From the NCBI GenBank assembly GCA_019637445.1, contig JAHBVS010000001.1, positions 1,709,586 to 1,773,585 on the forward strand: a stretch of DNA of 64,000 bases, given 5' to 3'. Of this stretch, positions 17,138-62,799 are shown in pieces. The number at the start of each line of letters is the position of its first letter. The stretch's first letter is position 1. The notes under the pieces are model-generated. The model saw only the letters and a program-made list of their open reading frames with translations, ran no database searches and was not told the origin of the DNA. A program made the position numbers and the translations under genes. The DNA is from Gemmatimonadaceae bacterium. Lineage in GTDB: Bacteria; Gemmatimonadota; Gemmatimonadetes; Gemmatimonadales; Gemmatimonadaceae.

Positions 17138-18361
17138 GTGCCGAGACCCGCTGCTTCCAAGACGCTGACCTACGAGGCCTGGGCGATTGTCGCTCCGGGC
17201 CTCGAGTCGTTGCTGGCCGCCGAACTACAGGCGCTTGGATTCGTCGACGCCGAGGCCAATCCGGGTGGTGTGGCCTTTCGCTGCGATCTGGGCGGCCTCG
17301 CACGCGCGAATCTCAACACGCGGCTGGCCTCGCGCATCGTGGTGCGCTTGGCCGCATTCAAGGCGACGGCCTTTCACGAGCTCGAGCGCGCGGCGCGCAA
17401 GGTGGAGTGGGCACGGATGCTGCCTGAGGGCGCGGCATTTGACCTCCGCGTGACGGCGCGCAAGTCGCGGCTCTACCACACGGACGCGATCGCCGAGCGT
17501 GTTGCCGACGCCATCACGCGAGGGGTGAAGGGCGCGCGTGCATCCGAAGGCGTGGACGATGACGGCGATGCGGAGTCGGTGCTTCCGGTCGAGATGGATG
17601 CGCCGCCTGCCGAGGCCGCGGCGCAGACAGTGTCGCAGCGATTCCTTGTGCGCTTCGAGCACGACCGCTGCACGATCAGCGCGGATAGTTCAGGGCCGCT
17701 ACTGCATCGGCGCGGCTACCGACAGGCGGTGGCGCGTGCGCCGCTTCGCGAGACACTGGCCGCTGCAATGCTCGCGGGGGCGCGCTACGACGCGTCGCAG
17801 GCCTTGGTCGATCCATTCTGTGGATCGGGCACGCTGCCAATCGAGGCGGCGATGCTGGCGCGGCGAATCGCGCCCGGCCTTGGGCGTCCGTTCGCGGCCG
17901 AGGCGTGGCCCGAAGGCGATGCGTCCGTGTGGCTGAGCGAACGCGCCGAGGCCGAGTCGCGGATCCTGCCGCGCGCGCCGGCGCCAATTGAGGGTAGCGA
18001 CCGCGACGAAGGCGCGATCACCGCCGCCGAGTCAAACGCTGTCCGCGCGGGCGTGGCTGACGATGTGCGTTTCACGCGCCGCGCGCTCTCTGACCTTGAG
18101 CTGCCGACCGAGCGGGGCCTGCTCGTCTCGAATCCGCCATACGGGCTGCGTGTGGGCGAAAAGGCTCCGCTGCGCGATCTCTACTCGCGACTCGGCCAAG
18201 TCGTCCGCGCGCGCGGCGCCGGCTGGCGCGTGGCCCTGCTCTCGGCGGACCGGGCGCTCGAGGGTCACACGGGGCTGCGGTTCACCGAGGCGTTGAAGAC
18301 CAGCAACGGGGGGATTCCAGTGCGGCTTGTCATTGCTTCGGCCCGAGGCTCAGTTCGATAA
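17138..18361 (+). CDS. THUMP-domain rRNA guanine-N2 methyltransferase (RlmL/YpsC type)
   Basis: The 407-residue protein has a THUMP RNA-binding domain in its first ~170 residues ('APGLESLLAAELQALGF...GGVAFRCDL..LARANLNTRLASRIVVRLAAFKA') and a class I methylase domain after it: 'LVDPFCGSGTLPIEAAMLARRIAPG' for SAM binding and 'LVSNPPYGLRVG' (NPPY near residue 332) for catalysis on a guanine N2. It corresponds to the N-terminal half of E. coli RlmL, as in Bacillus YpsC. An acidic insert (about residues 135-165, 'EGVDDDGDAESV') interrupts the THUMP/methylase junction. The stop TAA supplies the first bases of repeat A3's AACTGC edge. Confidence 0.88.
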   Translation: MPRPAASKTLTYEAWAIVAPGLESLLAAELQALGFVDAEANPGGVAFRCDLGGLARANLNTRLASRIVVRLAAFKATAFHELERAARKVEWARMLPEGAAFDLRVTARKSRLYHTDAIAERVADAITRGVKGARASEGVDDDGDAESVLPVEMDAPPAEAAAQTVSQRFLVRFEHDRCTISADSSGPLLHRRGYRQAVARAPLRETLAAAMLAGARYDASQALVDPFCGSGTLPIEAAMLARRIAPGLGRPFAAEAWPEGDASVWLSERAEAESRILPRAPAPIEGSDRDEGAITAAESNAVRAGVADDVRFTRRALSDLELPTERGLLVSNPPYGLRVGEKAPLRDLYSRLGQVVRARGAGWRVALLSADRALEGHTGLRFTEALKTSNGGIPVRLVIASARGSVR

Positions 18362-18568
18362 CTGCCGTTTACCACGGAGACACGGAGACACGGAGGTTGT
18401 CGGGACGCGGTTCCAGTCTCGGGGTATGCTCCTCACTGCAACTTCAAAGGGGGCTCGGCGGACAGATCTGTCCGCCGAGCCCCCTTTGAAATCGGCTGGA
18501 AGAAGACTCGGAACACATCGCGTGCGCTGTAGTTCTCCGTGTCTCCGTGGTGAATTGCCGTTGCAGTT
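18360..18568. repeat. Palindromic octamer element A3 with nested 48-bp perfect palindrome
   Basis: The left end AACTGC overlaps the stop codon of the methylase gene and is followed by CACGGAGA octamers (18371-18395). The right end has two such octamers inverted (18535-18551) and ends with GCAGTT at 18568. Seventeen bases of the arms are perfectly inverted. The interior holds a separate 48-bp perfect palindrome. It fills the gap between convergent genes. Total length, about 209 bp, nearly equals that of A4. Confidence 0.85.
18443..18490. repeat. 48-bp perfect palindrome centred on AGATCT
   Basis: Bases 18443-18466 are the exact reverse complement of 18467-18490 with no loop. The arms begin TTCAAAGGGGGCTCGGCGG. 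It would form a cruciform or a very strong RNA hairpin in both transcripts; the outer TTCAAA/TTTGAA could serve as a terminator tail of low quality. It is nested inside repeat A3. Confidence 0.95.
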
Positions 18569-29497: not shown

Positions 29498-29707
29498 AAC
29501 TGCTTTGCCACAGAGGCACAGAGACACAGAGAGCTTGAGCGCACCGCGACGGCTGCCTGCACTCTCAGTGTCTTCGTTTTTCCTATGAACTACGCGAGCG
29601 GGTCGGCGCGCTCGCCGTTCCAAAGAAAGAAGACACAGAGGCCGCACGGTCGCTTCAGCACCGTCGCGAAACCCTCTGTGTCTCTGTGCCTCTGTGGCAA
29701 AGCAGTT
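29498..29707. repeat. Palindromic octamer element A4 with nested inverted repeat
   Basis: The 34-bp outer arms (29498-29531 and 29674-29707) are exact inverted copies: AACTGCTTTGC followed by three CACAGAGR octamers. A second, inner inverted repeat (CTCAGTGTCTTC at 29564 against GAAGACACAGAG ending at 29640, one mismatch) reuses the octamer. The element is about 210 bp and fills the gap between convergent ndh and the MFS gene. Confidence 0.9.
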
Positions 29708-40423: not shown

Positions 40424-40528
40424 CCGAACTGCAGTTATGAGTTGTAAGTCATGAGTCGTGAGAGAACAGCACCTGCGCTCGCCGTTTCACTCACGACTTA
40501 TAACTCACGACTCACCACTGCCGTTCGG
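40424..40528. repeat. Palindromic heptamer element B1 (GAGTYGT type)
   Basis: Arms 40424-40462 and 40490-40528 (39 nt each, about eight mismatches) are inverted copies built of 7-mers of the form GAGTTGT/GAGTCGT. The outer ends are CCGAACTGCAGT and ACTGCCGTTCGG, the same AACTGC-like edge as the octamer elements. It fills the gap between the convergent dipeptidase and rho genes. Confidence 0.85.
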
Positions 40529-51374: not shown

Positions 51375-51418
51375 GAACGGCAGTGGTGAGTTGTGAGTCG
51401 TGAGTTGTGAGTGGCGAG
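51375..51418. repeat. Heptamer repeat half-element B2
   Basis: One arm only: GAACGGCAGT then GAGTTGT/GAGTCGT/GAGTTGT/GAGTGGC heptamers, matching the right arm of B1. It lies between two codirectional genes, directly upstream of the thyX start, and is the one element in the window not between convergent genes. Confidence 0.8.
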
Positions 51419-51435
51419 GCTCACGGCTCTGAAAG

Positions 51436-60548: not shown

Positions 60549-60669
60549 TGTTTCCTCGTGATGGCGTTGTGACGAGGCGCCCGCGAGCCTCGTCCCTCAC
60601 TTGCGATGGACCCGTGTCGAGCGGGTCGGTCGGTGGTATGCGGGCCTGTCCTAGGCGCGACCGTTGGGT

Positions 60670-60675
60670 TACACT
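60670..60675 (+). promoter_or_regulatory. -10 box TACACT, predicted leaderless start
   Basis: TACACT lies 6 nt before GTG 60682 of the ECF sigma gene and argues for that start rather than the longer frame from 60664. Confidence 0.55.
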
Positions 60676-60681
60676 AGCGGC

Positions 60682-61254
60682 GTGACCGTGAAACAGACTG
60701 AGCCCGTCCCGCCGGACGATCTCCTCGACGCCGACCAGGCGGTCATTGACCGCGTGCTCGCCGGGGACCGCAACGCCTTTGGCATCCTGATCGAGCGCTA
60801 CAGCGACCCGCTGTATCGCCACGCCTACGGGATGACGGGCAGCGCGGACGTCGCCGAGGACATCCTGCAGGTCTCGTTCATCAAGGCGTTTCAGCATCTC
60901 GCCGAGGTCCGGGGCCGGTTCGATGCCTGGGTCTTTCGGATCGTGGCCAACGGGTGCAAGGACTGGCTCAAGAACATCCGGCGCACGCATCTGAGCTACG
61001 AGGAGGACGATCAGCCGTCGTCGTTCGAGACGCCGGACGAGGAGCTGGACCGTGGGGAGTTGCGCAACGACCTGGATGTTGCCTTGGGGTCGCTTCCGCC
61101 GTCTTTACGGGAAGCCTTTGTGATGAAGCACGTCGAGGGCAGGAGCTACGAAGAGATGGCGGTGCTCCTGGACGCGACGGTCGGTGCCCTGAAGATGCGT
61201 GTCCATCGCGCCCGTGAGGCGCTGCAGAAGCTGCTGGAGGAGCGATACTCGTGA
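60682..61254 (+). CDS. RNA polymerase sigma factor, ECF type
   Basis: The 190-residue ECF sigma factor has region 2 ('AFGILIERYSDPLYRHAYGMTGSADVAEDILQVSFIKAFQHLAEVRGRFDAWVFRIVANGCKDWLKN') and region 4 ('LGSLPPSLREAFVMKHVEGRSYEEMAVLLDATVGALKMRVHRAREALQKLLEER'). It ends in an overlap with the following small gene, whose product probably controls it. The signal that releases it is unknown. Confidence 0.9.
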   Translation: MTVKQTEPVPPDDLLDADQAVIDRVLAGDRNAFGILIERYSDPLYRHAYGMTGSADVAEDILQVSFIKAFQHLAEVRGRFDAWVFRIVANGCKDWLKNIRRTHLSYEEDDQPSSFETPDEELDRGELRNDLDVALGSLPPSLREAFVMKHVEGRSYEEMAVLLDATVGALKMRVHRAREALQKLLEERYS

Positions 61255-61544: not shown

Positions 61545-61568
61545 GCTCGCTTCCGGGTTCGTGGTATG

Positions 61569-61606
61569 GGGGCTGGCCTCTTTGTGAGGCTGGCCCCTCT
61601 TGTTTT
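61569..61606 (+). terminator. Rho-independent terminator of the sigma operon
   Basis: A 12-bp stem with two G-U pairs (61569-61580 with 61586-61597), a TTTGT loop and a TCTTGTTTT tail. The T-tail merges with the left arm of the GxxExxY element. Confidence 0.8.
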
Positions 61607-62041
61607 ACCACGGAGACACGGAGACACGGAGAACTTCAGCGCACCATTCGTTTGATGCCGTCCTTCAAGACAGGCTTATGGAAGTTCAGTAGATAGCCGA
61701 CTTGGTGGCCTGTGAGTCTTAGGTATGTCAGGAGCTGGGCTTCGAAGACGGGCTCGTGTCTGATGACGCTCTTCACTTCGACCACGATTCGATTGTTTAC
61801 GATGAGGTCTATGCGGAGCAGGCCGTCGAGGGTGATGCCGCGGTACTTCAGGGGGATGGGCACTTCGCGATGGACCCGGAACCCTCGCCACTCCAGCTCG
61901 ATTCCGAGACACCTCGAGTAGATCGACTCCAACAATCCCGGCCCGAGCGTGCGGTGCACGGAAATGGCAGCGCCGATGAGTCCCTCACAGTCCCGCTCCA
62001 GCATCCGGCAGTTCTCCGTGTCTCTGTGTCTCCGTGGTAAA
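61604..62041. mobile_element. IR-flanked GxxExxY element (candidate mobile element)
   Basis: Thirty-one-bp inverted repeats (61604-61634 and 62011-62041; 30 of 31 match) bracket a single minus-strand gene whose stop lies 1 bp inside the left repeat. Each repeat is three CACGGAGA-type octamers after TTTAC. The same two ends, with the same left/right difference, occur at 2114-2190 without the gene. No transposase is present, and no target duplication is obvious at the outer edges. Confidence 0.65.
61636..62004 (-). CDS. GxxExxY family protein (PD-(D/E)XK nuclease-like)
   Basis: The core begins at ATG 62004 (MLERDCEGLIGAAIS); the frame stays open to 62058 through the right inverted repeat, encoding 'LPRRHRDTE', so a longer product is possible. 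The family motif GxxExxY is 'GLLESIY' and the nuclease-like Asp...Glu-x-Lys is 'RIDLIVNNRIVVEVKSV'. The ~122-residue core has 'AISVHRTLGPGLLESIYSRCLGIEL', 'VHREVPIPLKYRGITL' and 'FEAQLLTYLRLTGHQVGYLLNFHKPVLKDGIKRMV', all typical. The cellular role of this family is not known to me. Confidence 0.88.
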   Translation of the reverse strand: MLERDCEGLIGAAISVHRTLGPGLLESIYSRCLGIELEWRGFRVHREVPIPLKYRGITLDGLLRIDLIVNNRIVVEVKSVIRHEPVFEAQLLTYLRLTGHQVGYLLNFHKPVLKDGIKRMVR

Positions 62042-62145
62042 CCATTCGAACCGACCAAGCGTACACTGGATGAGTACGACCACGAGAAGCATCAGCCCGC
62101 AGAGAGTGGTACTTTCTCGCGCACACACGAGTACCGGGAACACCT

Positions 62146-62670
62146 ATGAGCGCACACCGCCGGATACGGCCGCAGGCAGACGAGTACAACAAGTTCTATG
62201 CGGGCTACATCGCGCAGGTCCCAGATGGGGACATCGTCGAGGCGCTGATTGGCGGTGCCGAGATCGCCGCAGCGCTGCTCGGCGACCTGCCGGACTCCGT
62301 GGCCAATCGGGCCTACGCGCCAGGGAAGTGGACCGTCAAGGAAGTCCTGCTGCACGCCACTGATGCCGAGCGGATCTTCACGTATCGGGCGCTGCGCATC
62401 GCGCGCGGTGATACAACGCCGCTGCCGGGCTTTGACGAGAACGCCTACACCCCCCTGAGCGGGGCCGCGTCACGCACCATGGAGTCCATCCTCGACGAGT
62501 TCGAGTCCGTGCGCGAGGCGTCGGTCACGCTGTTCACCGGGCTGCCCGCCGAGGCCTGGACGAGGAAGGGGACGGCGTCCGACAGCCCCGTCACCGCACG
62601 GGCGATTGCGTGGATCACGGCAGGGCATCTGCTCCATCATCTCGGGGTGATTCAGGATCGATACCTCTAG
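62146..62670 (+). CDS. DinB/YfiT-like metal-binding protein
   Basis: The 174-residue four-helix-bundle protein has the three His positions of the DinB fold: one in 'TVKEVLLHATDAERIFTYRALRIARGD' and two in 'WITAGHLLHHLGVIQDRY'. Members of this superfamily include thiol-dependent transferases (bacillithiol or mycothiol S-transferases) and others of unknown role. Full length. The element C1 begins right after its stop. Confidence 0.85.
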   Translation: MSAHRRIRPQADEYNKFYAGYIAQVPDGDIVEALIGGAEIAAALLGDLPDSVANRAYAPGKWTVKEVLLHATDAERIFTYRALRIARGDTTPLPGFDENAYTPLSGAASRTMESILDEFESVREASVTLFTGLPAEAWTRKGTASDSPVTARAIAWITAGHLLHHLGVIQDRYL

Positions 62671-62799
62671 GATGAAGGATGGAGGATGAAGGATGGAAGT
62701 GAACGGCAACTACAACGGCAACTGCGCGACGTGATAAAGGGCGGCAACCGATGGTCGGTGCCGCCCTCTTTCATCTTCCATCCTTCATCCTTCATCTCC
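62671..62799. repeat. Palindromic heptamer element C1 (GGATGRA type) with nested terminator hairpin
   Basis: Arms 62678-62699 and 62775-62796 (22 nt, one mismatch) are inverted copies of GGATGAA/GGATGGA heptamers. Inside are AACGGCAACT motifs and a bidirectional hairpin (9-bp AGGGCGGCA/TGCCGCCCT stem, 62738-62767, plus an inner 4-bp stem) flanked by CTCTTT on the right and TTT on the left-strand side. It fills the gap between the convergent DinB and lpd genes. Confidence 0.85.
62738..62767. terminator. Bidirectional terminator hairpin inside C1
   Basis: Stem AGGGCGGCA/TGCCGCCCT with inner CCGA/TCGG; CTCTTTC follows on the plus strand and TTTATC on the minus strand. Confidence 0.65.

Follow-up and report, generated by a model that had tools for sequence, protein, structure and literature searches.

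Within the window, as we call the whole 64,000-nt stretch of DNA that was analysed, a gene of the GxxExxY family stands exactly between two inverted arms, and arms of the same make enclose gene-less palindromes dispersed through the genome. That the gene-bearing and gene-less elements are related and have common ends is strongly supported. We think it fairly probable that the GxxExxY protein is the single-copy, trans-acting enzyme of this dispersed population of palindromic elements, its own gene being carried by one of them. To our knowledge, GxxExxY is a widespread family with no known role, and no known class of mobile elements has this enzyme. The window holds five elements, the gene-bearing one at 61604-62041 and four without a gene; they and their neighbours are listed here in the order of their coordinates.

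About 894-982, no strand: gene-less element with CCACAGAGGCACAGAG arms and an outer TTTG/CAA extension
2114-2190, no strand: gene-less element of the 69-77 bp class, with the same arms as the gene-bearing element, folding as a single long hairpin (z -15)
About 18354-18562, no strand: gene-less element of the about 185-bp class, with an inner palindrome
29498-29707, no strand: gene-less element of the about 190-bp class, with outer AACTGC/GCAGTT
60664-61254, plus strand: sigma-70-family factor, the conserved left neighbour that marks the orthologous site
61568-61606, plus strand: intrinsic-terminator-like hairpin and T-run, at the end of which the gene-bearing element starts, as it does in the relatives G002, G008 and G012
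61604-61635, plus strand: left arm, three tandem units of CACGGAGA type
61636-62004, minus strand: GxxExxY protein gene (PD-(D/E)XK nuclease family), assigned by family profiles and an AlphaFold model
62010-62041, minus strand: right arm, an inverted copy with the middle unit CACAGAGA
62146-62670, plus strand: DinB-superfamily gene, the conserved right neighbour

The octamers of the left arm follow one another as CCACGGAGA-CACGGAGA-CACGGAGAACT, and the two ends of the element form an inverted repeat in which positions 61601-61635 and 62010-62044 are 94% complementary. As a preliminary description of this DNA had stated, the gene fits exactly between the repeats, and its stop codon (61636-61638) lies directly on the inner side of the left arm, which ends at 61635. 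The same description had the N-terminal frame reading into the right arm. The frame indeed remains open across that arm, as far upstream as a TTG at 62058, though the gene probably starts between the arms, with the ATG at 62002-62004. The right arm forms the 5' leader of the gene and supplies a GGAG 9 nt before this ATG. Membership of the GxxExxY family is given by curated profiles, TIGR04256 scoring 130.6 bits against a cut-off of 35 (E = 3.4e-38) and PF13366 scoring 128.2 bits against a cut-off of 22 (E = 2.5e-37); the latter is the sole Pfam family above cut-off for the window protein.

The AlphaFold model (pLDDT 96) consists of a minimal PD-(D/E)XK core of about 120 aa. A Foldseek search with this model returned Cas4 (PDB code 4ic1) and lambda-type exonucleases as the best solved relatives, with E values against the PDB of about 0.001 or worse, and a weak match to the homing nuclease I-Bth0305I. 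The catalytic residues of the fold, D58, E68 and K70, are invariant in all 79 of 79 sequences. The window protein, which had earlier been described as PD-(D/E)XK-like from its letters, is accordingly a predicted PD-(D/E)XK nuclease that resembles Cas4 and lambda exonuclease. A search of the PDB by sequence gave no match, a search of defence and phage families gave weak matches only, mostly Cas4-like, and no conserved set of iron-sulphur cluster cysteines of the kind expected of Cas4 appeared in two alignments. Between a betaproteobacterial locus (L200) and its counterpart in G101, dN is 0.06 and dS is 1.15, a sign of purifying selection, and the protein is therefore kept.

The element at 2114-2190 has the same two arms as the gene-bearing one: the left arms at 2114 and 61604 are identical, and 62011-62040 returns as a direct repeat at 2160-2189, with all 30 nt unchanged. 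These were the two elements of the preliminary description, and both are real, but they are two of five. With one mismatch allowed, the window has 19 occurrences of the octamer pair CCACRGAGRCACRGAG, where 0.05 would be expected, and 0 of 100 shuffles attained that count. Sound controls for the octamer searches are these window shuffles and the comparison of the genome of the window (G000) with that of its relative G012; a reversed-pattern control is unsound because the tandem unit resembles its own reversal.

Pattern searches, together with retrieval of matching stretches, located 58 paired inverted-repeat elements and 13 unpaired arms in G000 (3.35 Mb in 7 contigs). The genome has a single GxxExxY gene, so that 1 of the 58 elements carries it. 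By size, the elements group at about 52-70, 115-130, 180-190 and 220-250 bp, and a conserved inner palindrome of its own is found in several of these classes. Simple deletion from the gene-bearing element therefore does not account for most of the dispersed ones, and on this point the initial view of the gene-less copies as its derivatives does not hold. The arms are the best-conserved part of the elements, and both arms of an element change together, in compensatory pairs. In the two genomes examined closely, the nearest copies are only about 75-90% alike, and thus no burst was caught in the act. An Rfam search gave no match.

Of the 58 elements, all but one adjoin at least one open frame at its 3' end. 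Two convergent frames enclose 39 of the 58, as compared with 74 of 1000 random positions, the frames in both counts being ORFs that may not all be genes. An outer motif of AACTGC type is about 30-fold enriched beside the arms and often overlaps a stop codon. In the left flanks of the G012 copies (L256-L275), the stop codon of the neighbouring gene is very often found at a distance of exactly 10-12 nt from the arm, where it overlaps an outer AACNGC.

Other repeat families are also present in the window. An inverted pair of GGATGAA/GGATGGA heptamer tandem units lies at 62668-62797, between the DinB and lpd genes; paired copies of this type are numerous in G015, a genome without GxxExxY, and form a parallel repeat family. 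Inverted tandem GTGAGTY heptamer units at 40435-40520 and 51375-51427 belong to a separate dispersed family.

The bracket is not peculiar to this genome. Our sample of 80 GxxExxY loci drew on many phyla of bacteria and on a single archaeal contig; these were the best matches to the window's own subfamily, and the proportion with a bracket is therefore not that of the whole family. An inverted repeat spanning the gene (score of at least 30) was found at 55 of the 78 testable loci, whereas only 1 of 1055 control placements with equal spacing in the same DNA gave one. At least three chained units of the form C[AG]CN[ACG]AG stand beside the gene at 70 of 80 loci, against 26 of 1115 control windows. 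The units point mainly inward, with ratios of 35:6 for the plus orientation on the left and 38:9 for the minus orientation on the right. Their sequence varies by locus (CACAGAG, CACGGAG, CGCAGAG, CACGAAG, CACAAAG, CGCAAAG and others) with a period of 8-10, and the last unit before the gene is often at the position of a ribosome-binding site (20 of 39 first starts are at most 9 nt away). Among 29 loci of relatives, the second subfamily included, about half have the bracket. Thus most GxxExxY genes elsewhere possess the flanks that the preliminary description had proposed to look for, and a minority, for example that of G003, has no detectable bracket; a complete element adjoins several of these genes. 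On L198, a contig of a Methanothrix MAG, a complete paired element lies downstream of the GxxExxY gene, and this archaeal carriage may be either genuine or a binning error.

The dispersed copies follow the gene. Among 61 relatives, a count of 10 or more dispersed arms, for one or the other of the tested units, was reached in 8 of the 21 genomes with the gene and in 0 of the 40 without it (Fisher p = 7e-5). Within the genus, the genomes rich in 8-mer arms (G000, G002, G008 and G012) and those rich in 9-mer arms (G005 and G016) all carry the gene, and ten genomes without the gene hold no dispersed elements of the tested units. Four species (G000, G002, G008 and G012) have the gene at one orthologous site between a sigma-factor operon and the DinB gene, directly following the same terminator T-run; in G003, G005 and G016 it is found across the lpd gene, about 2-3 kb away from this site. 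The arms of the gene in G012 are of CACGAAG type, and dispersed CACGAAGRCACGAAG copies number 96 (52 + 44) in that genome versus 0 in G000. Between G012 and G000, the gene is orthologous while its ends and its scattered set have changed jointly. Within the genus, the dispersed set matches the arms of the resident gene, in agreement with the earlier expectation that the ends would co-vary within genomes.

Dispersed 9-mers are confined to genomes whose gene has 9-mer arms, plus the multi-gene genome G032. In distant genomes, the count of CACGGAG units tracks the arm class of the gene (p = 6e-5), and that of CGCAAAG units does so less strongly (p = 0.01). Some distant genomes hold units unlike the arms of the GxxExxY gene examined there; such units probably come from multiple GxxExxY genes per genome. 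Relatives from other genera have up to 9 GxxExxY matches each. With respect to the protein tree, unit position 2 (CAC/CGC) is independent, with 15 changes as compared with 15.7 in shuffles, whereas position 5 (GAG/AAG) follows the tree, with 10 changes as compared with 15.9 (1 of 300 shuffles), a signal to which host composition could contribute. In G032, G025 and G036, some of the 5-9 GxxExxY matches present in each genome are split or frameshifted.

As is the case for MITEs and insertion sequences, elements are present at some orthologous sites and absent from others. The gene-bearing site lacks the gene in seven relatives that have no GxxExxY, and the element at 18367-18556 is missing from the orthologous intergenic junction of G012, G002 and G005, whereas G008 retains a remnant of half an arm there. 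At the betaproteobacterial locus L200, a gene-bearing element lies between trpE and trpG (names assigned from sequence); G101 has the whole element at this junction, G102 has a decayed gene-less element, and in G111, G139 and G131 only about 8-11 bp separate the two genes. Three more junctions are filled at the L200 locus and empty in relatives, and at one of these G105, G131 and G100 carry elements with units of other types. Empty sites, which the preliminary description had proposed to look for in sister strains, were thus found at trpE-trpG, at three further junctions and at sites of the window, and occupancy is not identical in all relatives, orthologous sites being filled or empty according to species. 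In 78 elements, neither a target-site duplication above shuffled pairing, as MITEs and insertion sequences would have, nor a recognisable excision footprint was seen.

Carriage by phages or plasmids was considered and rejected: GxxExxY occurs in 0 of 50,697 phage records and in 8 of 72,556 plasmid records, unlike ordinary insertion sequences. We also rejected the idea that distant arms in G012 enclose cargo genes. Two of the three such pairs (L276, 297-1664, and L277, 259-1413), with arms 1.1-1.4 kb apart, enclose ordinary transposase genes of IS type, as though insertion sequences had inserted into palindromes, and the third encloses 5.6 kb of unrelated genes.

The relation first proposed, that of an autonomous element to a MITE-like derivative, therefore stands in part. 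It agrees with the shared ends, the general occurrence of the flanks, the genome-wise co-variation and the empty sites, but not with a single-copy gene that keeps a fixed site in four species, hardly ever occurs in plasmid or phage records and has no duplicated target beside it. In these respects the gene differs from an ordinary autonomous transposon and is closer to a RAYT that serves a REPIN population.

From these observations we infer a mobility of the elements that is catalysed by the nuclease, which would bind and cut the units, act on a hairpin or single-stranded substrate and drive the spread by its cutting. In the mechanism that we propose, GxxExxY would recognise a tandem 7-mer, C-R-C-N-R-A-G, with a spacer of 1-3 nt, repeated about three times and standing as inverted arms at both ends of the element. 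It would most likely cut in or next to these ends while they form extruded hairpins or are single-stranded, for example during replication, and host repair or copying could then put copies of the element into new intergenic sites, mostly at the 3' ends of genes. Arms and enzyme would co-evolve, and each genome would therefore have its own unit sequence. For the broader proposition, of a class of genome-resident mobile elements in many bacterial phyla whose sole enzyme is a minimal PD-(D/E)XK nuclease like Cas4 or lambda exonuclease, which detects the arms of tandem octamers in their hairpin form and needs no DDE, HUH, serine or tyrosine recombinase to spread the palindromes, we see the chances as evenly balanced.

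The nuclease might instead serve maintenance and not mobility, processing or repairing cruciforms at the palindromes, while host errors, template switching for example, spread the elements. Such a role would suit a PD-(D/E)XK fold from the branch that includes Cas4, AddAB and lambda exonuclease, and a gene that is vertically inherited and rarely found on plasmids, and the paired changes of the arms are also expected from hairpin-templated correction. However, a genome-specific unit that is common to unrelated loci needs copying between loci and not only local repair, and a general palindrome repair enzyme need not bear the unit at its own ends; we therefore regard this explanation as unlikely. 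That something else moves the elements, be it a conventional transposase or a host process, with GxxExxY as a captured passenger or accessory, appears rather improbable to us. Capture would not recur with the same bracket in many phyla, nor would it make the dispersed set follow the arms of this very gene, and gene-less genomes of the genus have no elements of the tested units; on the other side, no target-site duplication was found that would tie the nuclease to movement, and IS-type transposase genes do occur in relatives, in G012 even between element arms.

A regulatory reading, in which a global regulator binds the paired tandem units and GxxExxY is this DNA-binding protein, has a precedent in Aklujkar et al. 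2009 (PMC2700814), where such paired sites were predicted to bind a global regulator. It is very improbable here, given that the nuclease residues are invariant, that the elements stand at gene 3' ends, mostly between convergent frames and not upstream of promoters, and that their occupancy varies between relatives. Least probable of all is homing, in which the nuclease would cut empty sites and the element would be copied in by recombination between homologous chromosomes, as the clean empty sites at conserved gene junctions and the presence of homing nucleases such as I-Bth0305I (the weak match above) in this fold class might suggest, since homing would confine an element to a single site, whereas the 58 copies occupy unrelated ones, and there is no sign of the joined flanks being recognised by the nuclease.

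The reading that we favour, a trans-acting nuclease with its dispersed palindromes, can be set beside several known systems. The window protein is a clear member of GxxExxY (NCBIfam TIGR04256; Pfam PF13366, PDDEXK_3), family names that carry no role. In the literature covered, most subscription journals being outside its scope, we found nothing that links GxxExxY, TIGR04256 or PF13366 to repeats; the name GxxExxY had only irrelevant mentions, and the unit strings appeared nowhere. With the nuclease domains of Cas4, lambda exonuclease and AddAB, the protein shares the core fold and the D..ExK..QxxxY motifs; it differs in its length of about 120 aa, in having no iron-sulphur cysteine set and in being tied to genomic palindromes, not to CRISPR or recombination complexes. 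Like a MITE and its parent insertion sequence, gene-less and gene-bearing copies have terminal inverted repeats in common, but here there is no DDE transposase, no target-site duplication was found, and the gene is single-copy at a conserved site, with almost no plasmid and no phage copies.

The repeats themselves have been seen before. The class 2 sites of Geobacter metallireducens consist of three tandem TCTCCGTS[Y] units, paired on opposite strands at variable distance, and are read as predicted global regulator binding sites in passages of Aklujkar et al. 2009 (PMC2700814). The unit TCTCCGTS[Y] is the reverse complement of the CACGGAGA unit, and the layout is the same; a nuclease gene or a link to mobility was not found in those passages. 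Measured against them, the connection with an enzyme, the co-variation and the empty sites appear to be new. The repeat class noticed in Geobacter in 2009 would thereby get an explanation and the GxxExxY family a natural candidate substrate, and the many natural pairs of enzyme and cognate unit may serve for reading out a specificity code.

The closest parallel is the REPIN-RAYT system, in which doublets of REP sequences accompany a REP-associated Y1 tyrosine transposase, the RAYT, that is believed to open further intergenic sites to copies of REPINs (Bertels and Rainey 2011, PMC3116915). Both systems have a mostly vertically inherited, single-copy enzyme gene flanked by repeats that are dispersed as inverted pairs in intergenic locations; in both, enzyme and repeats co-vary between genomes, and the repeats are mostly inverted pairs able to form hairpins (here 58 pairs as opposed to 13 unpaired arms, with the z of -15 given above). 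The differences are that the enzyme here, a PD-(D/E)XK protein of about 120 aa, is unrelated to the HUH/Y1 transposase, that each arm consists of three tandem units of 8-10 bp whereas a REP is one imperfect palindrome, and that the gene lies exactly between both arms. If the nuclease does spread the palindromes, its mobility chemistry would stand outside the known recombinase classes and would have evolved in parallel with REPIN-RAYT.
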